Shown here piece by piece: positions 2,583 to 63,429 of a stretch of DNA of 64,000 nt. The translations under genes and the position numbers were made by a program. Numbering within the stretch: position 1 is the first letter of the stretch; the number at the start of each line of letters is the position of its first letter. A model generated the notes under the pieces. That model saw only the letters and a list, made by a program, of their open reading frames with translations. It was not told where the DNA came from and searched no databases. The DNA is from Enchytraeus crypticus (lineage: Eukaryota; Annelida; Clitellata; Enchytraeida; Enchytraeidae), in the NCBI GenBank assembly GCA_905160935.1, contig CAJHZI010000303.1, positions 272,001-336,000 on the forward strand, in the 5' to 3' direction.

Positions 2583-3492
2583 GAAAAGCTTCATTCTCTG
2601 TCAGATTTTAAGACATGCGTAAAACTTTGGGATACAGTAAAAATACAGTATAGAAAAGCAAATATTTAACCTGCAACTAGCATTTCCTCAAACTTTTGTG
2701 TTTCTCAAATTTTAAGTTTCGCTAATAAGTGAAAGCAAATAAAGGAGGCAAACAAAATTTATATTTAACCTACCCCGAATATTACGTTTTAATTAATATG
2801 TATTAAAAATTATAATTTAATAAATGTTAATAATTATAAATGTACTAAGCAGTTTCATGGAGTTGTGAAATCTAGTTTCTGATAAGAAAAGTCAAGTATT
2901 GATTGATCAATAGATGTGGGTTCAAATTCAAGCCGTGTACGTCACTAGAACGCACTAGCTTTGTTGTAATGCCAGAACAAAATTAAAAAGTTATCCAAAT
3001 TCAGTATTCAGAGCAAAATACGTCAAATCGTCAAATTCTATTAAATTCCTCACATTAATTTAATGGCATTATATAAGCAAATGTCATAAAATATACAATT
3101 TTCAGATTAATATTTTACCTGCTAGATGCATGCATCAAAATTGAGAGTTAGCTATCAAAGCTATTTTTGCGTCAGTCTTATATCCGCACAGGGTATAAAC
3201 AGTATAAACTGATAGTATACATGTAACTCATGGACTCAGTTCAAAAGAAAGGAGTCCAAAGTTCGTAGTCATTGCTCCTTACATAATACAGCGCGACGTT
3301 AGTAATTGTCAGGGGCTAAAGCTCGATACTTTAATGTCACAAGAGTTTAGTGCTGGCAGCTGTGAAATTTCTATTTAATGATTAGTTTATTATATGTTTA
3401 TTTCGTGAATGATTTATGTCAAATGTGGAAAGTATACTGTTAGTACGTTACTAACCTACTAAAGACTTACAGGTTCTGTAACACTCTGAGAA
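2583..3492. other. Left flank of the large TIR element, no gene seen
   Basis: AT-rich sequence with short ORFs only and no repeat family I could match elsewhere in the window. It ends at the 6-bp duplication that borders the inverted-repeat element. Confidence 0.45.
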
Positions 3493-3498
3493 AATGTT
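3493..3498. repeat. Left target-site duplication, AATGTT
   Basis: AATGTT here and AATGTT at 15274-15279 directly bracket the two outer ends of the inverted repeats. A six-base duplication is typical of Polinton/Maverick insertion (established knowledge). Confidence 0.8.
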
Positions 3499-3605
3499 AG
3501 TAGTTATGAGGTTAATCTTTGAAGCTCAAAATTGACCTTTGACCCCTAAGTGCATTATTAATCAAGCGCTGACCTAGTTAATCCGCCTACATACATGCTT
3601 GACCG

Positions 3606-3752
3606 TACTAATTAGCCCGAAGTATTAGTGGATGTATGTGTCACGTGTGTGCACTTATGTATTACTAGTTAGCCCGAGTAGAGCGATTGATCTCGCTCAG
3701 TACTAATTAGCCCGATGTGAACACTTATGTGGGTATTACTAATTAGCCCCGA
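3606..3752 (+). promoter_or_regulatory. Subterminal repeat cluster, TACTAATTAGCCCGA x4
   Basis: Copies lie at 3606-3620, 3663-3677 (one change), 3701-3715 and 3737-3752 (extra C). A fifth, weaker copy lies at 4452-4466. The inverse set is at 15020-15035, 15057-15071, 15095-15109 and 15152-15166. Repeated short sites just inside transposon ends often bind the recombinase; that role is inferred here. Confidence 0.55.
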
Positions 3753-4006
3753 AGCGCTATTGTAGGTCAAACCAATTTTTGACAAACTAAATGATTCGTT
3801 TTTATTAAGAGGAGCAGGGGGTTCTCACCAGATGATTCACTCTAAATATAATAAATAATTTATTTCATCCAGACTAATTATTAGAAAGTGGAGCATCTCG
3901 TTAATTACGTCATGTGAGTCATGACAATTATGGCGCTTCTTAAATTTAAAATTTTCTAATGTATTTGCTCCATCTTATATTTTCATCATTAAATGTAAAA
4001 CAAGCT

Positions 4007-4177
4007 ATGAAATTCGCAAAACAGCGTATCGCAAAGATGTCAATTTCGTCGATTGTAGGCTTCCTCATCGCGTCGGCAGCGCGTCGTCGGCAACGTCGAG
4101 CGGCGGTTTCGGGCAGCTACGTCAGGGCAGCGAGGGAATTCGGAGGCGTTCGCATACGAGATAAAATAAAATTTTAA
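4007..4177 (+). CDS. Short basic ORF inside left TIR (hypothetical)
   Basis: A 56-codon frame starting at an ATG. Its centre has a hydrophobic run (SSIVGFLIASAA) followed directly by an arginine cluster (RRRQRRAA), and the tail is also basic. It sits in the only CpG-rich part of the inverted repeat. The whole 171 nt is identical in the right repeat (14596-14766, minus), while the flanking sequence has substitutions and indels. I do not recognise a family. Basic, partly hydrophobic mini-proteins could bind DNA or membranes, but the conserved sequence could equally be a promoter or recombination site that happens to be open. Translation is unproven. Confidence 0.3.
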   Translation: MKFAKQRIAKMSISSIVGFLIASAARRRQRRAAVSGSYVRAAREFGGVRIRDKIKF

Positions 4178-4719
4178 TTACGCAAAGCATGAATTTAATT
4201 AATAGCACGGTCTACTTCATTGCAAAGTAAATAACCGCTTGTGAAATACTCTTTTGACTTGTGAAATTTGCACACTCTGATACCTTATAGTTGCTTTAGA
4301 AGCTCATCTCTAACATACATGTACATGCAATCTTTTTATACAGAAAGTACAATTTTGTAATATTTATCTGCGGCAGATTTATGCAGTTTTATCTCTTTAA
4401 CATGGCAGCTTTATAACTGCTAAAATGTTGAATAATTAAAAAACCAGATATTACTAATTAGCTCGAATAACAGTAGAAAAATTATTCTCACTATGTACGT
4501 CCTCAATTATACTTATATGATTAGAGTACTAACTAATGTAGGTTTAATGGGCTGCCAAGGTCGAGAACTACCAGCGGTAAGGTACATCATATAGCCTAAT
4601 TGTTTCTAGGCGTGCTTTGTCGTCAACTTGTTCAAAGTACATCACGTGAATACTAAGGCCACACAAACAAGTTCTTGCAGCACTCTAAGCACCATCTGCA
4701 GCTGATCGGCTCCTCGAAA

Positions 4720-4881
4720 ATGATTCGAGGTGGTATCATAATTGTGGTGCTGTTGTGGTTCTTAATTCACACTCTCAAAGTGCTAGCAATTCCTTCTTTA
4801 TCTTGTAACATCGCAAATCTGACGCGTAAAACATTGAAACAGCAATATGCGTATAACCATATAGCTTCAGCGAAAAATTAA
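4720..4881 (+). CDS. Small ORF with one hydrophobic helix (hypothetical)
   Basis: 53 codons from an ATG, with a strongly hydrophobic stretch near the start (IIIVVLLWFLIHTLKVLAI) that could be a signal anchor or signal peptide, then a polar, slightly basic tail. It reads inward just inside the left inverted repeat. An AG acceptor-like site (TTCTTGCAG) lies 40 nt upstream, so it could be part of a spliced gene. No family is recognised, and chance is a real alternative in AT-rich DNA. Confidence 0.2.
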   Translation: MIRGGIIIVVLLWFLIHTLKVLAIPSLSCNIANLTRKTLKQQYAYNHIASAKN

Positions 4882-4926
4882 AATTCTGTAACTTATTTGC
4901 ACAAATTTTTATAAAGTATACAGTAT

Positions 4927-5034
4927 GAGTTAACATTCCACAAAACATTCACTCGTGCTAAAGCTTCTCAGAGTAAATTTGAGTTAACATTCCACAAAAC
5001 ATTCGTTCGTGCTAACGTTTCTCAGAGTAAATTC
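4927..5034. repeat. Tandem duplication, 2 x 54 bp
   Basis: Two head-to-tail copies, 4927-4980 and 4981-5034, start GAGTTAACATTCCACAAAAC and differ at only about five positions. The function is unknown. Confidence 0.8.
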
Positions 5035-5427
5035 TACATGTATATTTTCAAGCACATTGACAAATTAAAGTTCTTATCATTAACTCTGTCTCCTATTGTA
5101 CATCGTGAAATCTTAATTCTTAATTCATTGTTGTCATCATTTAATTGATCAGTTTTGATGATATAGATCTTAGCGTCTTTACAAAGTCATGATTTAAACA
5201 AATAAATTCTCTCTCAATATTCCACTTTAAGAATAAGCTCTAAGTAACAAATTGCAGTCTGTTTTCGCACTCTAGGAAACGGTAAAATAATTATAGCGTT
5301 CAGTACTTTAAATTAGTTTTTCCTCTCGTCATACATCTGGTTTACTATTGTTATATTTTAGCTTTAGTTGTCTCACGTGCAGTTAACGACCGTGCTATTC
5401 TTCAGCTCTCATCGCAAAATATACACT

Positions 5428-5459
5428 CACGCACACACACACACACACACACGCACACA
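5428..5459. repeat. (AC)n microsatellite
   Basis: A run of CA dinucleotides interrupted by single GC variants. Confidence 0.8.
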
Positions 5460-5532
5460 GTAATTAATGATCAGTAGTCTCAATGTGTAATTTCTACGTT
5501 AAAAATTTAATCCTTAAAGATTAAATAAAAAT

Positions 5533-5602
5533 AATGGCAGATTTATTCAGTGCTATCTCTTTAACACGACACCTTTAAAACTGCTAAAAGTTTAATAATT
5601 TG
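5533..5602 (+). repeat. Third, partial copy of the TIR inner edge
   Basis: GGCAGATTTATTCAG, then ATCTCTTTAACA and ACTGCTAAAAGTTTAATAATT, mirror the last 65 nt of the left inverted repeat (4372-4437) in direct orientation, about 1.16 kb further in. It suggests that sequence between the two copies was inserted into, or duplicated from, the repeat edge. Confidence 0.5.
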
Positions 5603-5609
5603 CAAGCAT

Positions 5610-8160
5610 CTTCAAGAAGTTCTGTTAGCTATGTAATATGACGCAGGGCTGAGCCGACGTTCTGACAACTCGAATCCTTACAACAAGATGTCGCATCCAG
5701 ACGCAATTATCGTAGCAGCACCCAGTAACTTTGACTAAGCTTTAATTTACTATTAAAATGCTTTTATTACAATTTTCCCTCTGAGTGTTGTTTTATCATG
5801 CTAAAGTAGATACTACTACATAGTCTGCTGGCTCAATCTATAAGGAGCACTGCATCGATAGAGACATTATACACTTTCCGAACATCATTTCTTGTTCTCA
5901 TATAACTTTGGAAAAACATATAATTCTTTTTTAAAGTCAACTTAATCTATGCGGAAGTAATGCTATGTTTAAACAACGTAACACATCTATCAAACAAACT
6001 CTCTTTCAGAAATAAAATTGACGATCCTTAAAGCAAATATAAAGTCTGCAATTAAATAGAATTCCTCATGGTACTGATGAAATATCAATTATCAACAGTG
6101 AACTATCCATATATTAGTATACTTATAGACTATTTTTTATAAGAGGTGATTGTTTTGCTGAAGGTAACTGCAATTTAATACATTCTAGTGTGTAGTATAT
6201 CCTCTCCAGATATTCAATCGAGATATATATTAAATGTAAAATTAAGACATTTGTGCATAATCATCATTTGGTAAGTAAATATACTTTTCAGTCATTTTAA
6301 ACATACCATTCTGTTATTAAATGAAGAACTACATAATAAATATATATGAATATGTTGTACAATGCCAGCTGATAATATAAGCACAAACTCCTCCCCACTC
6401 TCCCACCACTAGGCTTCATTCATTATGTGAGTAGATTTACCGCTTCATTTTATAAAAGTACCATAACTAAAAGCTTCAGTGGCTGTTACAAATTATCATT
6501 AATAACATAATAAAGCAGACCTACTTTGTAATCAGTGATGAAGAATTGTAACTAAAGCAGTTATCTCTATCTTTTTAAATTAGCTCAGAAATTATTATCT
6601 TAACAAATAAGAATAATAAGAAAATAGATGATTAAGTTTGCTTAAATAGAAATCTGACCATAGCATGTATGCGATTTAGATTTAACTTCATTGGGATTTT
6701 TAAACTTTTAAACTGTACTCCCATCGATCTCAACATTTTACTAAGTAGAGCACATCACCATCTCTCAGTACCCATAGATCTGAGTCACTGGCTGACTCAA
6801 AATTTTCAATCTCAATCATATCTTCCTTCACAGGTACATGATCTGCTTCAGAGGTTGAGAATTCAGAGGTTGAGAATTCTTGTAGAGAATGTTTGAACGT
6901 TGGTCATATTCATCGGGCATCCACCAGTCCCACTAGTAGGACAATGGATCCTCTTTGCTATTTCTTGCGTTTTTCTCCGTTTCAATAGCATATATCGACT
7001 GAGATCGATGCAGCGAAAGTCAGGAATCTCCCTTCGATGCTGCGCCGGTAACGATTTTGAGCGGCGTGGTCGCGCAGAGCCTGATGCTAAAGAGGTTATT
7101 GTAACCGCTTGTCTGTATGGTACACACACACACAGAGACTGTTATCAGGGTCACATATTAGACAAAATTCAGTAGGTTCATGCAATTTACTAAACACATC
7201 AGTAAAGCATCAGCCGTAAAAGAAAAATCTATTAAAACGCATTAATACTGAGATCATTTATCCGGAACTCAAACAGCGATTTTAATGTAGCCTAATAAAG
7301 TTGCACAATGCTATTTAATTGATCTCATTTGAAGTAAAAATTGGATCAATTTATATATGATATTGGGTCATGTGTATACACTGAATAAATTTTAATTATA
7401 TATCCGAATGCACTATATATGATTTGAGGAAGACAATGGCAAACTATCATAGAAGTTCAATCTTATTTACTCTCTCTCAACGAAAACTTTTAACGTGACA
7501 TAAAATATTTCATAGATAGAGCAGGCTTTAAAAAATTAATATCTTATTGGGCATGGAAGGAATCAAGAAAGATTGCTCAAGTGATAGATTATAGCTGATC
7601 ATCATTTTATTGTAATTACTAAAATTAATTTGTGACTATCATTAGCTACAAGTATCTACAAAATGAATATTACCTTTGAAAGGAAATCATACAATTGGTG
7701 TATATAAGCGAAATAAATATAATGAATGATACAATGAAAGTAAAACTAGCCCAACACTATTCAATCGATTCCTAGTGAAAGCGTGCATATTTATGCGCAA
7801 TTTTTTATTCTGTTGTTATAATAACTCATCGTAGAGATACTTAGTCATATACGTGTATATATGTATCTATGTATCTCTGTATACATGTACATATGTATCT
7901 CTGCTAGCAGATAAGACTATTGCATGAAAGAAAATATATAGAAATATAAGTAGGTCGCTACTCACATTTTGTATCCAGATTGTTTTATTGATTATATCTT
8001 ATACTAGAAATGAGCATATAAATTTTTTTTGAGGATCTAAAAGCAATAAAAACAATTTCAATTGTAGTATCATTATAATACTCAGCAAGTTCACTATAGC
8101 TGAATATATTGACGGAGATTTTCTTATTTTTCATGATCCCTGCAAACTAGTTTTCTAGTT
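5610..8160. other. Element interior, left half; CpG-richer island at 6880-7130
   Basis: Mostly AT-rich with no long frame. The exception is about 250 bp (6880-7130) that is open on both strands (91 codons plus, 88 codons minus) and has several CpGs. The minus-strand frame has a basic run (LLKRRKTQEIAKRI) followed by CPTSGTGGCP. I cannot assign it. It may be an exon remnant of a lost element gene or a regulatory island. Confidence 0.35.
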
Positions 8161-8164
8161 AAAG

Positions 8165-8395
8165 TCAGCTATGTCTTAATAGCGTAGGGGTAACGTCATG
8201 AAGTTTTAAATGGCAGATCCTTAGGTGAATTGAACCCTCGTGGGTTCGAATCCCATCCGCGCTGATCTGAGAGTAAAGTCTCGGACATTCACTGGACTGG
8301 TTGCACGGAAAATGGAATAACTTGCCTGACGGTTTAAACATGTGGTAGTATAAAGTGATAGATATCAACATGGTTGATCATTTCACTATAATGCG
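8165..8395 (+). mobile_element. SINE-C copy (tRNA-derived)
   Basis: An A-box-like TAGCGTAGGGGTAACGTCA and a textbook B box in GGGTTCGAATCCC lie about 50 nt apart. They are followed by a body shared with minus-strand copies at 51593-51822 and 60376-60600 (GATCTGAGAGTAAA, GATCATTTCACTATAATGCG). The open frame on the opposite strand is an artefact of the repeat. Confidence 0.75.
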
Positions 8396-9299
8396 TGTTT
8401 TACTTTAGCACTGCTTCATATATAATTAATTTGCTTTCAAGTAGGCTGTAAAAGATTCACAGAATGTAGTCGCTGGTTCGAATCTTTGCCATCTCGTTCT
8501 ACTGTAACAGGCTTTAACTTATGTCTAGAAGAAGATCATACGTTACAGTCTATCCAGATATTTTAAAAATTGTAATCCGCCTCTAAGCAAACGATAGTGT
8601 CAATTATATAGACTTGGTTAATTTTAAAATTTAGCTACGCCTCCATATTTTAATGAGTAAAAACTTATATAAGCTAAATACATAAATTATGTAAAACAGC
8701 TAACATTACTTGAAATCTATAAATTTGTTTAAAATATATCTGTTAGATAGTATCTTGTTAATGGTATAAAACTGCTCCTATCTATTTAGAGCATATCGTT
8801 GATGTCTATAATCTACTAAGTCTAGTAAAATTGACATAATTTCGAGTCTCTAAACTCCTCGCTTTAAAACACTTCCGAGCAATGCAATAATGCGAGCTTT
8901 GCATTACACGTTTGCTCTCCAAGGTCTTACTCTTAATTGATTCTTCAATGTAGGCCTATATTTGTTGACAATAGAATCACATGACATAGGTCTAGTCTAT
9001 TATCTTAATTTAATTTTTTCACACCTTATGCTTTTCACTATATCGCTAACTGGAACCTAATATCCCCTGACATACGCAATGCAAAATCTATACTGAGTTT
9101 TCCAAGCGGTATAAAGTCTACCTTTTTGATGAATGCTTTTGCTAATTGGTATGATGGAAGTTTTGTAAATTTGTACATTTGTTTCAATGAAGTTATGTAA
9201 GTTTCACAGTGTTTTAATTTGTATATATATTTTATTAGTCATTTAGCTCTGCTTATACATGTAGATTATAATTAATTTCAACTTTATATGTATTATCAA

Positions 9300-9375
9300 C
9301 TTTATATGTATTAACGAGAAACCACTTCAGAAACCATATTATTCCCAAGATATAGGCCACACTGATCGCTGGATA
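9300..9375 (+). mobile_element. SINE-B fragment
   Basis: Carries the SINE-B core (AACGAGAAACCACTTCAGAA, then TTCCCAAGATATAGGCCACA) without head or tail. Confidence 0.5.
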
Positions 9376-9544
9376 ATCATTTGTGTAAGCGCTACGATAT
9401 AGCGTCTCTCTGGTAATTAACTTATAATTATTTATAAACTTTTAGGATAAATATTTCCTCATGTGATGCTAACTATAATCATTATATATTCCTCCAACAT
9501 GATTAAATGGTTGTTGCAAAGGTTGTATCACACTGTAATATCGC

Positions 9545-9722
9545 CTATAGAGGGAGAATGGAAGGAAATAGTGGCAGAGATTATGAATGTTAGATGATTT
9601 AAAGATCCTCTAATATGAGTACATGGAAAGGAAAACGGAAGACAGAAAAAGAGTGGAAGTATTATATACCATGAATCTGTCAGTAGGCAGTGCACTAAGA
9701 GAGAGAGAGAGAAGAATTTAGA
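9545..9722 (+). mobile_element. LINE 3' end, partner of SINE-B
   Basis: Matches 19585-19785: TTAGATGATTTAAAGA, GAAGACAGAAAAAGAGTGGA, then GTAGGCAGTGCACTAAGAGA and (GA)n. It is the decayed C-terminal reverse-transcriptase codons and 3' UTR of a non-LTR element. Confidence 0.6.
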
Positions 9723-10894
9723 ATGAATGATGCCAGATGCTTATCATCTTTTAAAGTATACAAATAGCTGCAAAGATAGAGAATACGTAATTCATTATTC
9801 CATAACGGGAGCAGCGATTAAAAAACTAAAAACTTTAAAAATGCCGAAGTATAAAATCACAATCTTAAAATCTTTGCATTATTAGTGAGAGTAAGGTCTA
9901 TTTAACACAAGTCCCGTTATATCCATACAGCATTGTAATAATTAGTTAGCTCGCTCCGCGCAAAGCAGGTGCAGATGCTGTAAGCCAGGTTATTAAGGTC
10001 TACAATTTCCCTTAGACTCTTAGCTATTATATTGGGTTACACGCCTAATAACTTATAATAATATAATTATTACACGCCTTCTTCTTTTCAGATTACAAGT
10101 AGAGTAAACATTAATTGAAAATATATCCGAAGGCTTAAGTCATGTGATAGTAGAGATAAAGTATTGTATAGTCCTACTAAGGGAGCTTTTAAATTTAGTA
10201 AAATAATCAAGCAATAAATATAGCAACTCATTGTAGACACTTATTCAAAGTTTCGAGGCTCAATGTAGTATATCAAGAAACAGAAATTTGGACTTTGGAA
10301 AATAGAAATATCGAAAAAACCTTATTTCTCATTTGACTTGCGCATTTTTTTTTTGCTAGGTGTAACTTGTTTTAGTTACTTGCATCTGTGCCCATGTCAA
10401 TTGTAAATTTACAATTACTGTGTTGGTAAACATCGCGTGACTTATATCAATCAATCAACACAGCATTATTACACGCCTTACTGTATTGCGCTACCTAACG
10501 GCTGGTCCACAACGTATAACTCTTCCAACCAATTCTATCCTTAACCTTTCTCGTCGTCTCTAAATATGAATTTCTCATCAAAGATTAGACCATACTAAGG
10601 TTTTAGTTACTAGTTTTTAAATGAGTTTTTACATGAAACTAGTAGACCCTATGTCTAAAAATGCTATAAAGCCGAAATTAACATCAGTTTCATCTCTCGT
10701 AAACGATATTAGTGAAAGGAGGCGTCTGATTTCACATCCCGTTTGCTTTCCATTGAACTTGTTCATGCGCCTCTTAGTATGCATGTAGTTTACGATTAAT
10801 AGAGGCAAAGAGAGAAAAAAATAGACATTAGTTCAAATATGGCTAGCCCTAACATATTAATCAGATTCAGAGCGCTTTATATTTTTCGAACGAT

Positions 10895-10925
<31 letters not shown>

Positions 10926-11546
10926 AAGAGGGAGAGAGAGATGATAGGATATTGATAAGGGTTAGAATAGTGATTGTTTAACAACTTCAATTTTATTTAT
11001 TAACAATTTTGTCAGTTGACTGAACACATAAAAAATGTGTACAATAGAATTCGAAATACAATTTATCTACAATTGCTCGCTCTAAAGCGAATTGGTTAAA
11101 ATAAATTACACGAGAAGTCCATGGACTAGGACTCACATATCTGAAGGTTAAATGCGTTTTACTTCAAACTATTGTACTTCAGGCCTCGGCTTAATATTTT
11201 TTGTACACAGTCTCAGAGTCACTCTAGTAAGTGTCTGACTCAAGGTATATAATCATACTTGATGTGTGCTTTCACGCGCTGTAAAGATAGATAGATTTCC
11301 TTTGCAAAAGACGACAACTGTAAATTAATAGAAACTACAGTTCAAACATAATATCTCTCAAAGAGGGAGGGGGCGTAAAAGTATATAAAAATTCATAGGG
11401 AGTTGGTTTAGTTACCAAATGACTATACAACTATAGAGGTTATAATTATAAATTTAATAAATCCATAAGTATATTAGACACTACTGATAACCGTATTCAT
11501 CAGAGTATCATTAATATGTTGAGATGGACTATCAAGCGAGGCTGCC

Positions 11547-11550
<4 letters not shown>
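9723..11550. other. Element interior, right half, no gene seen
   Basis: AT-rich, with stops in all frames and a (GA)n tract at about 10899-10940. No coding or tRNA-like signal is supported. Confidence 0.4.

Positions 11551-11622
<72 letters not shown>
11551..11622. repeat. (TA)n microsatellite
   Basis: About 36 uninterrupted TA units. Confidence 0.95.
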
Positions 11623-11623
<1 letters not shown>

Positions 11624-11777
11624 CACATTTTTATGATAAATATAACAAATTTACATAATATTGATCTATGAGAAAAATGCTTATATATGAACATTTTACA
11701 AATGTGACATTTAGACGTTTCATATAAAAGGTTTGATTATTTGCATATAAGTAAATCATTTTTTATTACTGAACTCC

Positions 11778-12035
11778 CCTGTGTCCTGTTTGGGTAAATG
11801 CAGAATAAACCACCCGTAAACTGCACGTATCGTTAAAAGCGACTGTGAAAGGCAAAGGTGACTGTAGAAAGCAATGGAATATTGTTAAGCTGGTGGTTAA
11901 AATTAAAACGTGGCCAACGCATAGCCTTTACTGAAGAGATTAACTTATAGGAGTTCTCTGAGCAGTGTGAAAGCAGCATGTGAGTAAGAATTTGTGTGCC
12001 TTGGACCTGCCGCTTGACGGAGAGAGAGGCTGGTG
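11778..12035 (+). mobile_element. SINE-B copy, diverged
   Basis: Has the shared head (GTGTCCTGTTTGGG, AGAATAAACCACCCGTAAAC, TGCACGTATCGTTAAAAGCG) and a decayed tail (TTGGACCTGCCGCTTGACGG then AGAGAGAG). It inserted into the large TIR element after that element formed. Confidence 0.55.
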
Positions 12036-12549
12036 AACTACATATTTGCGCTAGTTAAGTACTTTAATGATGTTTAGCGAAAATAGAATATTTCTGTCAT
12101 TTGATAAAAATAATATTCTATAATGCCTTTTTTATTTTAATTATTTTTGCCATTTCATTTACTGTATAAATATCATAGGTTCCTAATAATTATAATAATA
12201 ATAATTAATAATAATATTACATTCCTGCTTAATTTAATAATTAATGGTAAGTTAACTGCTAAGCAGAATTTGAACTCTACAGAGTACACTGATTATTTAG
12301 ACATTAAAGGTAAATTTGCAATACATAGCAATGACTCCTTATCGAGTATGCGTTAAAAATTTTAGCGCTAATTTAAAAATTTGAACTAGCAGACAGTTAT
12401 AGTATTATCTACATTGAAGTTTTATAAAACAACACACAGAGAGAAAATTGTAATACATAAAATCATTTTAATAGTAATTTAAGACTTAGCTGTTGCGGTA
12501 AAATCTGTAAATTTTGAGTCAGTTGAATAATTATAACATTTGGATAAAT
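12036..12549. other. Downstream flank of the PC4 gene
   Basis: AT-rich, with a short (TAA)n-like stretch near 12190-12230. No gene is supported. The 69-codon frame at 12147 is low-complexity. Confidence 0.4.
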
Positions 12550-13782
12550 CTACAGATATACCCCATTTGACCCGAAGGGATAACATTCCTTGCATGCGAG
12601 TGCACTTATTTGATTGTTGTGTGTGCTGTCAAATGAGCACGGTAGTGCATTTTTAAATTCCGGATGTGTTTCTTTGATATTCTCAAATATATCGAGTAGA
12701 GCCTTCCACTCAGCGGATTGAAGCGCAATCCCCTTTCTGGTCGGAATAGGTTTAGTATGATTCTGAGGGAAGAAGTATTTACGTAGATTAACTAAGCTCC
12801 ACCCTGATCTGACCGAACAATATATTCCGCCACCTAAATGTACTTCGTGCACAAAATCCATCTTTGACTCCACATCCAGCAACTTTCTGGATATCTCAGC
12901 GCTGGCCATGCCCAGAATACAAAATCTAGAAGGGGTTAGCGCTACCCCTTTACGAGTAGGGAAGCCTGAATTCTTGTCATGCATCCTTATATGCACATAC
13001 TTGATATTGTTGAAGCAGGTAACAGACACAAATTTATCATTACCAAGATCGTACTTCTGAAAACATACATTTGCAGTAGTATTAGTAGTTCAATATTACA
13101 AATGAATATATTTTCTAAGTCTCAATCAACAATCGATAAACATAAAAGTTTTCAGTAGGTTAAGAAAGTCAGCCCTTATTGATTAACAAATTTCTCTAAG
13201 CTCAACAAAAGCACGGAGCCTACATCAATAGTGCACATGAAGGAAACTTTTAAACTAATTATTTGACAAGTATTTCCTAGTCGAAACAATTGATATACAT
13301 GATGTTCTTCTTCCAATTTAATTTTAAAAATAATAATAATAATAATAATAAAAATAAAAATAATAATAATTTTACAATGTCTGATTAGTAGCTATCAGCC
13401 CACCAAGTCTGTTCTCAATCTCTTTGCAGGAATTTCTTCATCGTTAGACATCTTTCTCTTTTGTATCGTCTACACAATAACATATATTGAATTATATCTT
13501 TGAACTATGATGTTTTAAGAAATAGCTACATTTATAATTTTTATTTAAATTTAAAAAAAAAGTCATAAGATATATCAATATTAACGATGAGTGGAATAAA
13601 AGAAAAACACATAACTAGATATTAGATATTGATCACTATTCCAACGTCAAAAATTTTCCTTATTGTTTTTCTTTTCTTTTTGATATCGACTCCATGCATT
13701 TAACACTATATGAAGATAGATTTGTAGGGATGATATTTTACTGTATAATGTAGGATTTCGCAATAAATAAAAAAGACAATGC

Positions 13783-13849
<67 letters not shown>

Positions 13850-14008
13850 TTTTCATTTAAACATATAATATTTAGTTTAAATCATACTTTATGATACATT
13901 TACACTAACCCTTTCAATCTGTTGAACTCCAGCGAGCAAATCTTCATCTGATATGTCACTGTCCAAATCTTCCTGGTAGTTATTATCAGAATCATGATGA
14001 GAAGACAT
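12550..14008 (-). CDS. Tandem PC4-domain protein, three exons, element cargo
   Basis: Predicted exons (minus): 13910-14008, 13404-13469 and 12550-13056. All junctions are phase 0 with GT...AG borders, giving about 223 residues. Residues 1-33 are acidic and 34-55 basic (PAKRLRTDL). Residues 56-105 form a first PC4 fold: YDLGNDKFVSV opens it and FPTRKGVALTP is its core. Residues 125-184 are a second, more canonical PC4 domain (VNLRKYFFP, then IPTRKGIALQSAEWKALLDI). The tail has Cys/His spacing HNNQ...CKEC that could bind zinc. PC4/p15 proteins bind single-stranded DNA and act in transcription, replication or repair; two domains in one chain could mimic the usual dimer. The gene starts about 320 bp inside the right inverted repeat and reads inward. 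No disabling mutation is seen. Splice sites are my prediction; the intron 2 donor (GTGGGC) is weak. Confidence 0.75.
13787..13848. repeat. (TA)n microsatellite in PC4 intron 1
   Basis: About 30 TA units in the intron between exons 1 and 2. Confidence 0.9.
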
Positions 14009-14329
14009 TGTCAATACTGCAGATTACTTTCGTTACTCTATTTCTTCAAGATAGCTGGGAAAATGATGATGATGTGATCACTTTGGTGTTTTTATAGCAT
14101 ATTTGATAACAACAAGTTTATGTCAGAATAGTTTAAAAATTAGGTTAAGTGATCTAATCATATGATGTAGTTAGTGAGGATAATACATATCTCAATTAGT
14201 AGTGAGAAATCTGAACTTTTCTAGTCAAATGAAGTAATTAGTGAGGTCAAACGCGCTCGACCTCAAATTGTCACGACTCGAGTTGACAAACCTACAGCTC
14301 GACTGTATGTCATTATTCAACGTAAATTA

Positions 14330-15273
14330 TTAAACTTTTGGCAGTTACATAGTATACAGTGTTACAGAGATAAAGCAAGGATAAAACTGCATAAATCGGC
14401 CGCAGATAAATATTACAAAATTGTACTTTCTGTATAAAAAGATTGCATGTACATGTATGTTAGAGATGAGCTTCTAAAACAACTATAAGGTATCAGAGTG
14501 TGCAAAATTTCACAAGTCAAAAGAGTATTCACAAGCGGTTATTTACTTTGCAATGAAGTAGACCGTGCTATTAATTAAATTCATCCTTTGCGTAATTAAA
14601 ATTTTATTTTATCTCGTATGCGAACGCCTCCGAATTCCCTCGCTGCCCTGACGTAGCTGCCCGAAACCGCCGCTCGACGTTGCCGACGACGCGCTGCCGA
14701 CGCGATGAGGAAGCCTACAATCGACGAAATTGACATCTTTGCGATACGCTGTTTTGCGAATTTCATAGCTTTTTTACTTTTAATGATGAAAATATAAGAT
14801 GGAGTAAATACATTAGAAAATTTTAAATTTAAGAGGCGCCATAATTGTCATGACTCACATGACGTAATTAACGAGATGCTCCACTTTCTAATAATTAGTC
14901 TGGATGAAATAAATTATTTATTATATTTAGAGTGAATCATCTGGTGAGAACCCCCTGCTCCTCTTAATAAAAACGAATAATTTACTTTGTCAAAAATTGG
15001 TTTGACCTACAATAGCGCTTCGGGGCTAATTAGTAATACCCACATAAGTGTTCACATCGGGCTAATTAGTACTGAGCGAGATCAATCGCTCTACTCGGGC
15101 TAACTAGTAATACATAAGTGCACACACGTGACACATACATCCACTAATACTTCGGGCTAATTAGTACGGGAAAGCATGTATGTAGGCTGATTAACTAGGT
15201 CAGCGCTTGATTAATAATGCACTTAGGGGTCAAAGGTCAATTTTGAGCTTCAAAGATTAACCTTATAACTACT
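14330..15273 (-). repeat. Right terminal inverted repeat
   Basis: Reverse complement of 3499-4437. It ends ...CCTTATAACTACT and is followed at once by the AATGTT duplication. Compared with the left copy it has a few substitutions and small indels. The CpG-rich block and the four subterminal motifs are kept. Confidence 0.85.
14596..14766 (-). CDS. Short basic ORF inside right TIR (identical copy)
   Basis: The second copy of the 56-codon basic frame at 4007-4177, with no nucleotide difference over 171 nt. Its start is 588 bp upstream of the PC4 gene ATG and on the same strand, so a transcript from this repeat could carry both. It may be a peptide, or simply part of a promoter within the repeat. 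Confidence 0.3.
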   Translation of the reverse strand: MKFAKQRIAKMSISSIVGFLIASAARRRQRRAAVSGSYVRAAREFGGVRIRDKIKF

Positions 15274-15279
15274 AATGTT
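15274..15279. repeat. Right target-site duplication, AATGTT
   Basis: Direct repeat of 3493-3498. Confidence 0.8.
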
Positions 15280-15332
15280 CTCTTACGCAAATGTGCACTT
15301 AGTGCACTCTATTTGTTATTACATATAACTGG

Positions 15333-21647: not shown

Positions 21648-26038
<4,391 letters not shown>

Positions 26039-34517: not shown

Positions 34518-37500
34518 AATCTTCTTTGTTTTCTGCTAAGTGATAGGCCTAAAGTACATATTCTTACTAGCAACCTGTCTTAACACTTCACAAGAGCACC
34601 CCGTTGACAAGCTGGACCCACCATAGAACTTAAGTCTTTACCAAACCGTGATAGCAGCTTGGGTAAATAAAGCTTCTGGGATGATTTCTCATTGACTTGC
34701 TCAACCATTAACAACATAGCTACAAAAGTGGCTCTTATATTTTAAATTATTAAAAGTATTATTGGAATAATCTGCTAACCAGACAAGAAGCTATATTTAG
34801 CAGAAAATCCTTTAGGCTGAGGGAGAAGTTCTCCATTAATATCCCGCGCAATCTGCCGATTGGTTGAACTGAAGAGAAGTTCAAATCTATTGGCACTGCT
34901 CATGAGAGTGGGCGGAACTTTCTGTCCGCAATAAAATCCCATTGGCTGCAGCTCTCCGTCAAACATAGTTTGAACCAATAGAGAATCGGTGGCACCATCA
35001 CAGCTACAAAATCAACCAACCAGCAAATATGCGTATAAATTAGTAGGTAGATCTGACCAATGAAGTCTCAAAGGTCTGGCCAGTTGCATAGGAGCCAATA
35101 TCAATCACCCTTAAACAATTGCGGATACAGGTGGGGTCGGGCAAGTGGTCCGCCCCTCGGCCCGCTGAGTAAACATGGATGGTAGGTTGCATTGTTCGAA
35201 AATGCAAATTATATCAGTTTTGTAAAAATTTAGGTCCTTGTTGAAAGGCTATAAAAATTTTACAGAAATACCTTCTCGGATAGGCAGGATCCCCGTGCGG
35301 GTAATTAAGGTCAAACTCCGTGAACTCTAACTTGACCCGGTCGTTCTGACCTTGACCTATTAGCATGTATCTGCAGATGAGATGGGGTGGGTAGGGCTCA
35401 GGGTAGAGAGGGGTGTAGATAATTCCTGTGAGGGTATCATTGCTGCGTAGTATGACGTCACACGGGGAAGAGTCGATGACATCACCATCTAAAATGGGCA
35501 AGCAGAAAATGTACTCACTATAAATTAATAGAGGGCTAGTCCTTGACAATTAAGATGTTAGAAATAGTTGTATTGATTCATCTTACCAATAAAACGAATA
35601 TTGTAGAGAATTTAAGAGGTTCAAGCCCAGATTAACGTCAATTTCCTGTCCCGAAACAGACACCCATTATGCGTGAGAAAGGGATTCGAAACCAGCATCT
35701 CGCAGGCATCTAACCGGCTATGCTACAGGCTCAGCTCTTATCGTAAGATGAAAATGAAATCACAACGTGAGAATTGGTGCAATACTTACTTAAGAGTCTA
35801 TAGTCGGGAGATGTCGCTTTCGATCTACTCACTGCGTCTTGTTTCAGCTCACCAGATGGAGGCATAGGGTTGGAATTTGTCGTATTGGGTTGCCGTAGGA
35901 ACTCAAACTTAGCAGAAAATCCCTGCTCACTGTCGAATTCATCACTGGAAAATTCCAGTAGCATTTCTCTCCCAGTCGAAACAAACTTTACAGCTGTTCG
36001 CTTTAAAGATTCAGATAAAGGGATGTCAACATACGAGTGATCAAATTCAATCACTGTTTTATCAGAGTCTGACTTAGATACGGGTGACTTAGTCCGGTGC
36101 AAATTACTGGAATTATTTATCACAGTATCACGGTTGTTGGAAGATGACGTGTTGTAGAGTTTTTCGTAGTTATCAGGTGAGATTTCTTTAGATAATTGCG
36201 GTAGAACGTTATACGTACTATTTGTCGACATTACGGTACTGTTTCTATTAACGATATCGTCCAATGATTGCAATATTTCAAGAGTGTAGTCTAAGTTATG
36301 ACAGAACTTTCCAACCACCGGGGAAGCCTGTTCCAAACCGTCTCTTATTATTATCCAATCCCGACACTGGCCATTGACTGTGCTGCCCACGCTGCCCATG
36401 CTGCCCTTGCTGCCCACGCTGCCCATGCTGCCTGCTGCTCTTATACTACCGCTGCTCTTTCTAATTTTACCAGAACTCTCCATTTCTGGACTAGCACCAT
36501 CGTAAGCAAGTCTCAGACTGGTTATCGTGACCTTGACCCTCTCTCCGTCAAGGGCATGAAGGGCGTAGAGGCAGTGGGTGTTGTGAGGGTAGTGCTGAGG
36601 ATAGCGAGGACTGTAGATGTTACCGTCCTTGTGATGACGATCACTGTAGAAATCATAGGAACAGTTCGTGCCCCACCTCTTGTTGCCTCTTCTCATCTCA
36701 AACTGATCTAAAATGAGTTAAATAATTAATTAATTTTAAATATAATTAAAAATTTCGATTATAATTAATTTTTTAGTTGATTGATTGAGTGTATGCTCGC
36801 GTGGAATTTTTTAAGCGCTATTTTTGTGTTTGCTTGTATGATTGTATTGTAATTTTTTCTTGTCTTGCTATCTGAGTGGTGAAATAAAGCTACGCAAAAC
36901 GATTACAGTCACACTTCTATATAAGTCTCTATATAAGTCAATCAATAAATCAATCAATAGATCCAGTAACTTGGATGGAACTGCATTACTTTACAGTTTT
37001 ATGTAGACACTACATCTACGTTAAGCTGTTGTTGTCCTGATCGATAGCCTTAGGGCTCCTTAGGAAGCCACAAACCAAAGTTAACTGTCTCAATTTGCTG
37101 TCTACTGTTGTGCAATTTTATAAAGTGTAGTGGTTTCAAATAAATAAATAACTACGGGAAAATAAATATATAATAATTATTAAAAATAATTAGTATTCAT
37201 AATAAATTAATAAATCATATTAATTACAAATAATAAATACTCGTACATCTAGACACATTTGGTCTCCTACTTTTATCAATGAATCTATACTCCGCGGTGA
37301 ACCCAGTGTGATTTGTTTGCAATGAGCTGGAATGGAACTCGAGTATGAGACAACGCTTGGAGGAGAAATACTCCAGATGTCTTCCATCCAGACTTCCACA
37401 CAGCTCGTGTCTACTTCCGTCGTCACCAGCAGGACTGGAAGCGTCCCATGAGGGAACCTCTGGACGCTCCAGATCCAGATATAGACGCACATAGTCACTG

Positions 37501-61295: not shown

Positions 61296-61320
61296 AATAA
61301 TAATAATAATAATAATAATT

Positions 61321-63429
61321 TTTGACCGCTTTGACTTCTTTCGTGAATCTCCTTCTTAGAGGTGCTTGCCCCCCTGAGGTCCAACCGGTGCTGTTTGGTG
61401 GTAAACTCTTCGCACTCAATAAGAAATCTGGCGGCATTCGCCCCATTGCAGTGGGTTACACTTGGCGTCGTTTAGCCGCTAAATGCGCAAATCGCTATGC
61501 AGTATCTGCTCTCAGCGAATACTTGAGCCCAATTCAACTTGGAGCTGGTATTCCAGGTGGCTGTGAGGCAGCTGTTCACGCTACTCGCAGTTTCGCTGAG
61601 TCAATGCCAGCTGATCACTTCGTGGTAAAGCTAGACTTCTGTAATGCTTTTAATTGCTTGAGTAGATCACGAATGCTCAGCGAAATACAGCACAGGATAC
61701 CAGAGCTGTATAGTTTCTGCCATCTAGCTTACTCAAGCCCTTCGTGGTTGAAGTTCGGAGACTGGTGCATTGAGTCACAGGAAGGAGTCCCACAAGGGGA
61801 TCCCTTAGGGCCCATGCTGTTTTGCCTGACTATTCACCCTCTCCTTACTTCTCTCTCTAGCGATCTCACGGTGGGATACCTAGATGACATTACTCTAGGT
61901 GGTTGCGAGTCGCCGATTGCAAATGATGTACAGACTATCATCGACAGAGGCCAAGAATGTGGGCTTCAGTTGAATCGTACCAAGTGCGAAGTCATTTCAT
62001 CAGTTTGCAAATCTCCGGGCAACTCAGTTTTGTCATCATTTGTGCCAATGTGCCTATCCCATAGTTCTCTACTCGGCGCGCCACTCTCTGGAGAAGAAGC
62101 TACTACCACCGCTTTATCCAGTCGCCTTGAAGACCTCAAACGTACAGCATCACGCCTGAAGTCGCTAGCCGCTCATGATGCTTTAACAATCCTTCGCTTT
62201 TCTTTAAGTGCACCTAAACTTATGCACGTTCTGCGCTCTAGTCCGAGCTTCTCTAATCCGCGGCTTTAGACTACGACGAGGCTCTTAGGCAATGCTTGTG
62301 CGCCGTTATCAACGCAGATTTGTCTGTTTTGCAGTGGCAGCAAGCCAGTCTACCGGTGAGCATGGGTGGTCTTGGAATTCGTCTTGTTTCCCATATCGCG
62401 CCTTCAGCCTTTTTGGCATCAGCGATGGGAACGAGGCAGTTGCAAGACGCCATCCTTCATAAGTGCTCCCTTTCTGCCGATAGTTCCATTGACGTTGCGT
62501 TGTCAGTTTGGTCCAAAAGCCTCACCTCCAGTGCTCCACCTTCTACCTCAGTCAGTAGCCAGAAATCATGGGACCGTCCTATAGTGGATCGGATTTATAA
62601 CAGTCTGTTAGAATCCCAGTCCAATGCAGTAGACAGAGCACGACTCCTAGCTGTATCAACTAAAAGAAGCAGCGACTGGCTTCACGCTCTCCCTGTTGCT
62701 TCTTGTGGGCTATTTTTAGACAATGAGGCGATTCGAGTAGCTGTTAGTTTCCGTTTAGGGGCGAAAACTTGCGAGCCTCACATGTGCCCCTGCGGTCATG
62801 AAGTCGACGCTTTAGGTCTCCACGGCCTCTCCTGCAAACGAAGCTCAGGTAGAATGTCTCGCCATCACAATTTAAATGACTTAATATGGCGAGCACTTTC
62901 AAGAGCAGGCATCCCTTCCTCTAAGGAACCAAGTGGGTTGTCCAGATCAGACGGCAAGCGTCCGGACGGCATGACTTTAGTGCCCTGGTTGCAACGGTAA
63001 ATGTGCCGTTTGGGACGTCACGGTCATTGACACTATGGCAAACTCCTACCTGAATACGACTTCAGTCACAGCCGGTGGAGCTTCTGTTCATGCCGCCTCT
63101 AGGAAGTTGGATAATTACCGTGATCTGTCCTTAGGATATGAAGTTGTTCCGGTGGCCATTGAAACCATGGTCCCGATGAATCCCGAAGGAGTTGACTTTA
63201 TTAATGGCATAGGCAGACTTATTGCAGAGCAAACCGGCGATAAGCGAGAGACATCTTTTCTTTGGCAAAGGCTTTCCATGACTTTGCAAAGATTTAATGC
63301 AGTCTGCTTCAACAATTCTTTTAAGCCGATTGATGACCTCGAGTAGCCGGGCGGCGATTCAGCACGTATTGCTTGAATCGTTTTTATCAAACCCCAGGTT
63401 CTTTACACCGGGGTAAAATAAAAAATAAA

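Follow-up and report, generated by a model that had tools for sequence, protein, structure and literature searches.

The window analysed here is a 64,000-nt stretch of the Enchytraeus crypticus contig CAJHZI010000303.1, and all coordinates are positions in it. It contains an 11,775-bp element that starts with AGTAGTTAT, ends with ATAACTACT and is enclosed by a perfect AATGTT duplication (Table 1). The ends are of the 5'-AGTAGT kind, and the terminal inverted repeats (TIRs) align in three blocks, with 98% identity between 3489-4000 and 14772-15283, 99% between 3998-4245 and 14528-14775 and 98% between 4264-4393 and 14380-14509. A first-pass annotation of this DNA had claimed the AATGTT flanks, the 5'-AG ends, long inverted repeats that differ by a few percent and the length of 11,775 bp, all of which are borne out. 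It had also taken 6-bp target-site duplications (TSDs), long TIRs and 5'-AG-type ends for Polinton/Maverick traits, in agreement with a passage of PMC8097293 that describes (AGT)2 ends and 6-bp TSDs for vertebrate Mavericks.

Table 1. Features of the element and its flanks in the 64,000-nt window.
Feature	Position	Strand	Remark
Putative satellite element, whole	3499..15273		11,775 bp
Target-site duplication AATGTT, left copy	3493..3498		
Target-site duplication AATGTT, right copy	15274..15279		
Left terminal inverted repeat, ~0.9 kb	3499..4393	+	arm alignment; multicopy in genome
Right terminal inverted repeat	14380..15273	-	arm alignment
Left terminal module, AGTAGT + ~27 bp copy-specific	3499..3531	+	comparison of ends
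Subterminal repeats of type TACTAATTAGCCCGA	3600..3760	+	read by eye
Body without Polinton core genes	4394..14379		
Main exon of tandem-PC4 gene, stop codon included	12550..13056	-	reads inward from right end
Proposed phase-0 intron of PC4 gene	13057..13909	-	predicted from sequence
Proposed first exon, acidic, 33 codons	13910..14008	-	inferred from sequence

Translated in all six frames, with X for stops, the whole element matched PC4 in Pfam (PF02229, E 1.5e-13), and no other domain was listed at E<=1 in any frame. When 11 Polinton proteins were searched against copies of the element with tblastn, PC4 was again the sole match (53% identity, E 6e-63), the next-best protein reaching E 0.27 on the window element. 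As had been claimed, the core genes are absent: the protein-primed family B polymerase by six-frame Pfam and by tblastn with the PolB of local Polintons, and the rve integrase, packaging ATPase, protease and capsid proteins by six-frame Pfam and by searches with local Polinton proteins, the capsid gene of the local Polintons having no match in the copies. The body mostly diverges by 1–3% among recent copies, one stretch has older relatives at 83–91%, and its left part is missing from copies C338 and C156. Besides PC4, no long frame among those of at least 45 codons has a coding pattern across copies. The N/S ratios of two short plus-strand frames (4436-4591 and 10407-10541) resemble that of PC4, so that one or the other may be a second small gene. 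A 762-aa frame in C765 was rejected as a gene of the element; it has no Pfam match and sits in sequence inserted into that copy.

The main PC4 exon begins after TTTTCAG, which resembles a 3' splice site, and a similar intron lies at the equivalent codon boundary of the Polinton PC4 gene. Across 12 covering stretches the first-exon candidate has no indels or stops and three changes, all non-synonymous; an alternative at 13404-13451 (minus strand) is also in phase 0, but its donor was judged weaker. The protein matches PF02229 in two stretches (E 8e-14) and, in a profile comparison, PC4 structures such as 1pcf (E 1.5e-9); an AF2 model (mean pLDDT 85) has two strand-plus-helix units. The architecture is thus two fused PC4 domains followed by a Cys/His-containing tail, and its domain membership makes the protein a likely single-stranded-DNA-binding protein. 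None of the 18 full-length near-identical matches (96–100%) contains a stop, and pN/pS is 0.36 (148 codons; 11 sequences from nine elements). Comparison with Polinton PC4 gave dN 0.42, dS 2.7 and dN/dS of about 0.15, with identities of 42% at third and 73% at second codon positions. Judged by this low ratio and by saturated synonymous sites at 51–55% protein identity, PC4 in most full copies has evidently been kept by long-term purifying selection. A 1-bp insertion lies close to the start of the main exon in C338 and both C365 copies, and a partial PC4 copy on C247 contains stops. Four of the 13 two-ended copies have no PC4 (C156, C626, C575 and C637), yet C626 and C637 have exact TSDs; they inserted without the gene, which is therefore not required in cis and either acts in trans or can be spared in a single jump.

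The PC4 of the element shares 51–55% identity with that of local Polintons and 43–49% with metagenomic PC4s, and the matches listed include no intermediate between the two types. Since this PC4 is about as distant from the local Polinton version as from metagenomic ones, the local PC4 Polintons are no more than candidates for the exact helper lineage. The branch of the element is weakly placed in the PC4 tree (support 0.38), and scans of viral contigs with its PC4 returned no relative. The PC4 of C369, considered as an old form of the same gene, proved to be Polinton-type (75% to Polinton, 49% to the element).

Three Polinton loci of the same genome were read, one of them end to end. All three have ends of the same kind as the element and a tandem-PC4 gene beside the TIR, which in the C355 copy lies inside it. 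That PC4 is the sole substantial gene of the window element, as first annotated, stands, but in this genome the gene belongs to Polintons too; the presence of a tandem-PC4 gene in Polintons was in itself unexpected. The C600 Polinton (about 14.5 kb, TSD AATGTC) encodes, besides PC4, a 1,197-aa frame with the polymerase motifs DANNLYGWAM and TDTDS, an ATPase (Pox_A32, E 1.1e-6), an integrase (rve E 6.2e-11, chromo E 3.3e-11) and a protease and capsid with weak Pfam matches, below curated cut-offs. Its PolB was recognised by these motifs and not by Pfam, had no PDB match and gave no BLASTP hit against ten PF03175 loci. Matches to the PF03175 model number at least 206 genome-wide (79 of 475 candidates were scored), and none of those listed falls at the three PC4 Polintons.

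In the 524-Mb genome the TIR has at least 59 matches on at least 26 contigs (40 of 288 candidates scored), which excludes a chance origin of the window element. Ten of the 13 sized copies measure 9–14 kb and the remaining three 2.3, 6.8 and 17.7 kb. All 14 two-ended elements compared (12 copies of the element and two Polintons) start with AGTAG, extended to AGTAGT in nine of the 12 copies and to AGTAGA in three. Exact 6-bp TSDs flank 12 of these 14, namely ten of the 12 copies and both Polintons; the misses are C338, which fits only when an additional AGT is assumed at its right end, and C156. This count leaves out C575, with a rearranged right end, and C331 and C247, with one end in hand. Further copies with agreeing boundaries, the first two checks of the annotation, were thus found. 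As to the third, an empty site, no unoccupied version of the window locus appeared among the 40 of 427 candidates scored in this assembly, but in silico removal of C765 leaving one TSD restores a LINE RT frame that is open from end to end of the joined flanks (158 codons). The C765 insertion was precise. Recent transposition is shown by copies C48 and C445, which have different TSDs and share 99.8% identity over stretches of 9.6 and 3.3 kb.

The ends themselves are exchanged with Polintons. Four of 12 aligned copies have Polinton-type outer ends, their outer ~0.94 kb being 97.1% (C48), 97.8% (C445), 96.2% (C569) and 94.1% (C457) identical to the left end of C600; inward from base 203 of the window TIR, the same four are 93–97% identical to the window element. 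C48 and C445 do not differ from C600 in the first 165 bp (100% identity), where the window's type reaches 64–70%. Conversely, Polinton C7, with a body 97.6% identical to that of Polinton C355, carries satellite-type ends, its first 165 bp being 92% identical to copy C365 and 68–78% to other Polinton ends. These comparisons show that end types are common to both kinds of element and that the four copies have recombinant ends. A point against reading this as dependence on Polintons is that sharing of ends could in principle stem from recombination between integrated copies. The terminal ~33 bp have a mean identity of 99% within elements (n=14) and 50% between them (n=91 pairs). Repeats of the TACTAATTAGCCCGA type were also seen by eye in the TIRs of Polintons. 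In six of 13 copies one end is an inverted copy of the other, the right end being doubled in C338, C365, C569 and C156 and the left in C626 and C637.

Ends, 6-bp TSD, PC4 and recombinant TIRs are thus common to the element and to local Polintons with polymerase and capsid genes. As the first-pass annotation had proposed, the element is very probably a non-autonomous satellite of the PC4-bearing (Maverick/adintovirus-like) Polintons of the same genome, and a long-lived, recently active parasite of Polintons is its best reading. We infer mobilisation in trans, in which the protein-primed polymerase of a Polinton would recognise the AGTAG end and copy the satellite in linear form, the integrase of the Polinton would insert it, producing 6-bp duplications, and the capsid would perhaps carry it. 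Tandem PC4 would probably coat the single strands displaced in end-primed copying, or else favour replication or expression in some other way. A more specific version, which we put forward tentatively and think somewhat less probable than its negation, is a capsid-less, one-gene linear satellite that relies on an animal Polinton virus for its copying and perhaps its packaging, takes over the terminal origins of its helpers and uses PC4 as a selfish replication factor. By acquiring complete ends, up to ~0.9 kb long, it could keep pace with changing helpers; the ~33 bp at the tips would serve as a specificity module that matches at both ends of a copy, one end being derived from the other.

The element might instead be a MITE-like derivative that arose from a Polinton by internal deletion, is mobilised in trans and has kept PC4 by accident of its position beside the TIR. 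The position of PC4 at or within the Polinton TIR, the frequency of rearranged copies that keep one end and the PC4-less copies speak for this, but the long selection on PC4 argues against chance survival, no remnant of other Polinton genes is detectable in the ~10-kb body, and part of that body has older relatives; we regard this origin as unlikely. Far less credible is the annotation's other proposal, a new class of large TIR element, here autonomous with its own unrecognised, spliced machinery. The copies do share ~10 kb of body, and six-frame scans handle introns such as that apparently present in PC4 poorly, but ends, TSD and recombinant TIRs are held in common with local Polintons, no long frame besides PC4, among those of at least 45 codons, has a coding pattern across copies, and C338 and C156 dispense with the left body part. 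A view of the copies as decayed relics of dead Polintons, PC4 being the last frame to go, would account for the missing core genes; it is in the main refuted by intact ends and TSDs, by the 0.2% difference between C48 and C445 and by the stop-free PC4 matches.

Non-autonomous DNA transposons and MITEs keep their ends, have lost their machinery and occur in many copies. The satellite resembles them in each respect and differs in its large size and in mostly carrying a selected gene. Defective linear viral genomes, such as those of adenovirus, have duplicated ends, one end being replaced by the inverted other; the satellite has such replacements and multi-kb TIRs, in forms found as integrated copies. 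Virophages encode their own capsid, whereas the satellite has no recognisable capsid gene. Living off a larger element is what it would share with virophages and satellite viruses (compare PMC11172284 and PMC4028283). A PC4 homologue of phage T5 is implicated in recombination-dependent replication (by the title of a work cited in PMC9600219); both are mobile DNA genomes with a PC4-type protein, although the replicons are unrelated and the satellite protein has two fused domains and a Cys/His-containing tail. With Polintons/Mavericks the satellite shares the 6-bp TSD, 5'-(AGT)2//(ACT)2-3'-type ends (as given in part of PMC8097293) and long TIRs, and with local Polintons also PC4 and exchangeable outer ends; it differs in having one recognisable gene and none for polymerase, integrase, ATPase, protease or capsid. 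In the open-licence literature, a search for Polintons or Mavericks described as non-autonomous, defective or derived turned up only the phrase 'polinton-derived', and literature searches for PC4 together with Polinton, Maverick and transposon, or adintovirus found nothing.

Current opinion regards Polintons as integrated viruses, and their replication in hosts is known mostly from sequence. A satellite that apparently depends on them, swaps ends and keeps one gene is a minimal system, which indicates the functions that a helper has to provide, suggests that specificity may reside in the terminal module and the subterminal repeats, and opens end-primed copying and trans-mobilisation to direct tests. 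The three loci also establish PC4 as an accessory gene in Polintons. A PC4 'gene expansion' is reported for bivalves in a passage of PMC9223095, and the genes described there may partly belong to elements of the Polinton or satellite kind.

The 11.8-kb window element lies between two copies of AATGTT and carries TIRs (terminal inverted repeats) about 0.9 kb long, with 98–99% complementarity between their ungapped arms; these duplications, the element's length and the slight divergence of its long inverted repeats are as the first-pass annotation had described them. Its termini are AGTAGTTATGAGG at one side and AGTAGTTATAAGG read from the opposite side. A six-frame scan (X at stops) gave a PC4 domain (PF02229) as its sole Pfam match, and 11 Polinton proteins compared with the element and its extracted copies (L009–L028) matched at PC4 only (53% identity, E 6e-63), the next best match on the window element having an E-value of 0.27. 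The claimed absence of Polinton core genes was thus borne out. Since the defining genes were searched for and none was found, the element is by gene content no Polinton; by its ends it is one.

Features of the window element and of the surrounding window
Feature	Position in window	Strand	Remarks
Satellite element	3499-15273		11,775 bp
Target-site duplication AATGTT	3493-3498 and 15274-15279		two flanking copies
Proposed PC4 first exon	13910-14008		33 codons, acidic; ends AGG before GTTAGT, same phase
Weak DUF1647 match	22199-22693	+	likely host exon
CUB domain (E 6e-14)	35731-36717	-	likely host exon
Reverse transcriptase frame (RVT_1, E 3e-17), then overlapping frame without Pfam match	61319-63000		LINE-like

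The element belongs to a family: in the 524-Mb genome (802 contigs), 40 of 288 candidates were scored and gave 59 TIR matches spread over 26 contigs, both of which are lower bounds. The window copy, 11 extracted copies and the older C637 make up a set of 13 two-ended satellites. Ten of them measure 9–14 kb, the size of C575 being taken from the positions of its TIR matches; the others are C156 (2.3 kb), C338 (6.8 kb) and C765 (17.7 kb). The latter is enlarged by two inserts (L025 7480-9793 and L026 3009-7066), one of which contains an open frame of 762 aa that matches no Pfam model. Target-site duplications (TSDs) were sought in 12 satellite copies; C575, with a rearranged right end, and C331 and C247, each with a single end, are not among these. 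The 6-bp duplications expected of full-length copies were exact in 10 of the 12, every one different (AATGTT, ATAGGC, GGCGGA, TACGAT, CGCATT, GATTTG, ACGCTT, TGTCTG, GACACT and ATCATG); GGCTAC at C338 fits only given one extra AGT at its right end, and C156 has no fitting TSD. When the C765 element is taken out together with one GACACT, the flanks join into a run of 158 codons, every one open, that passes through the reverse-transcriptase stretch NGLPQGSVLAPILFNIY; this independently fixes the 6-bp duplication as well as the satellite boundaries. For the window insertion site, a search of this assembly revealed no empty allele (40 of 427 candidates scored).

Copies C48 and C445, which have different TSDs, match each other at 99.8% along stretches of 9.6 and 3.3 kb. 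TIR divergence is 1–2% between the window arms and 12% in C637. The body stretch 5800-7500 has at least 52 matches (40 of 956 candidates scored), including older relatives at 83–91%, of which C637 is the one examined as a whole satellite; the lineage is therefore long-lasting. About 310 bp of the body is a dispersed repeat (78–79%).

A protein search with the window PC4 against its own genome gave at least 149 matches (150 of 161 candidates scored). Eighteen are full-length at 96–100% identity, with stops in none; partial relatives are found on C356 (89%) and C247 (85–86%, with stops), and after a gap in identity there follows a large second group at 55% or less. Three loci of the second group were read (C355, sequence L041; C600, L042 and L054; C7, L043). 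Their PC4 genes are tandem, apparently spliced and beside a TIR, at either end in C355. They are accompanied by a 361-aa rve integrase with a chromodomain and frames of 329, 136 and 448 aa, and at two of the three by a protease-like frame; Pfam matches to Polinton capsid and protease are weak (E 0.034 and 0.0036, under curated cut-offs). For the 448-aa protein, the database has 2,719 relatives (top identity 87%). The ENA contigs given for one of these, P0012 (83%), and for the PC4 relative P0002 (49%) are both exactly 21,071 bp long, so the two proteins probably share one contig. On its other side, the C600 locus has an ATPase (Pox_A32, E 1.1e-6; Adeno_IVa2, 5.8e-5) and a 1,197-aa frame bearing DANNLYGWAM and TDTDS, which we take to be motifs of Polinton PolB. 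This element measures about 14.5 kb, has AGTAGTATAATAAGGCC at both termini and is flanked by AATGTC. Given these polymerase motifs, ATPase, ends and TSD, the genome contains complete-looking Polintons whose PC4 gene adjoins the TIR and reads inward as in the window element. Excerpts of one study give 5'-(AGT)2 ends and 6-bp TSDs for vertebrate Mavericks (PMC8097293).

The genome also has many PF03175-positive PolB genes, often with open frames of about 1350–1420 aa; BLASTP of the C600 PolB against ten such loci found no link, and they are another set of PolB elements. In L043 (277-4500), tandem repeats of about 2.6 kb separate two Polinton ends that point away from one another and are flanked by identical CTTATG 6-mers (read by eye); the arrangement looks like the duplication of a repeat array into which a Polinton had inserted. 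On C369, some 2.5 kb separates an old copy of the satellite body (C369:379107-380819) from a Polinton-type PC4, also old, that adjoins Polinton sequence (L056, C369:376250-376950); the two are possibly adjacent insertions or a mosaic.

A two-exon PC4 gene is suggested for both element types by their splice-like sequences. In the C600 Polinton, GTAAGT comes after exon ATGGCTGCTATTCAA, and TTTTAG immediately precedes the main frame (MAAIQ, then KLELGNN); the satellite main exon begins at the equivalent codon (KYDLGNDKF), preceded by TTTTCAG. In the window protein, two PC4 units are fused, as seen in an AF2 model with a mean pLDDT of 85, and a tail bearing conserved Cys and His is added. PC4 is the longest satellite frame among those of at least 45 codons, with 18 non-synonymous and 15 synonymous changes (ratio 0.33), no stop in nine covering stretches, and indels in four of these, within the 5' part. 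A clean contrast with the remaining frames is counted against by 4436-4591 (+), with 11 non-synonymous and 9 synonymous changes at a PC4-like ratio, and 10407-10541 (+), with 0 and 2, both without stops and with indels in three stretches. Over the 148-codon PC4 core (11 sequences of nine elements), 16 non-synonymous and 12 synonymous changes give a pN/pS of 0.36; C338 and both C365 copies have a 1-bp insertion near the main exon start. Comparison of the satellite PC4 with that of the Polintons gives a dN of 0.42 and a saturated dS of 2.7, with identities of 73% at second and 42% at third codon positions; PC4 has therefore long been retained as a protein in a lineage with no other recognisable Polinton gene. 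In the PC4 tree, the satellite branch has no firm placement. PC4 is absent from four of the 13 two-ended copies (C156, C626, C575 and C637); it is dispensable in cis, because C626 and C637 bear exact TSDs.

Satellites and Polintons also share termini. Over about 0.94 kb, the outer ends of C48, C445, C569 and C457 are 97.1, 97.8, 96.2 and 94.1% identical to the C600 left end, and inward of window-TIR base 203 the same four are 93–97% identical to the window element. In the overlap of about 185 bp, satellite-type and Polinton-type ends are about 83% alike; outside it, over window TIR 34-382, the four copies are only 72–73% identical to the window's. Polinton-type outer ends thus occur in four of 12 aligned satellite copies. 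Within the first 165 bp, identity to C600 is 100% for C48 and C445 and 98% for C569, against 61–70% for the other nine satellite ends compared. Conversely, the first 165 bp of Polinton C7, whose body is 97.6% identical to that of C355, are 92% identical to satellite C365 and 84–85% to six more of that type, against 68–78% to the C355 and C600 ends. This direction of exchange is weaker, since the contrast disappears in a 420-bp alignment (C7 to C600 79.8%, to satellites 72–78%). Ends could have been exchanged by homologous recombination within subterminal repeats of the TACTAATTAGCCCGA type.

Both ends of any one copy have the same terminal version: over the first 33 bp or so, the two ends of an element average 99% identity (n=14), and ends of different elements 50% (n=91 pairs). 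The terminal AGT is repeated two or three times; an inverted copy of the right end replaces the left in C338, C365, C569 and C156, and one of the left end replaces the right in C626 and C637. Polinton C355, with PC4 at either end, is a further case of such replacement. This variation would fit end-initiated copying of a linear molecule, as in protein-primed replication, accompanied by slippage and template switching.

'Non-autonomous Polinton satellite', one of two readings that the first-pass annotation had offered, is the best-supported name, given the Polinton ends and TSD length and PC4 as the only recognisable shared gene. A helper Polinton would provide polymerase, terminal protein, integrase and perhaps capsid, and the satellite its ends and, in most copies, the tandem-PC4 protein, which we infer would coat strands during strand-displacement replication. 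Excerpts of PMC9600219 describe PC4 homodimers contacting two opposing DNA strands, and a title cited there implicates a phage T5 homologue in recombination-dependent replication. PC4 might instead aid transcription from the TIR. Open-licence papers, largely as titles and beginnings of abstracts, yielded no description of such a satellite or of a PC4 gene in Polintons, and none joining PC4 with Polinton. A mussel protein (P0003, Mytilus edulis) shares the tandem-PC4 plus CxxC design; PC4 expansion is reported in bivalves, with up to 18 in Mytilus galloprovincialis (excerpts of PMC9223095), and may include Polinton genes.
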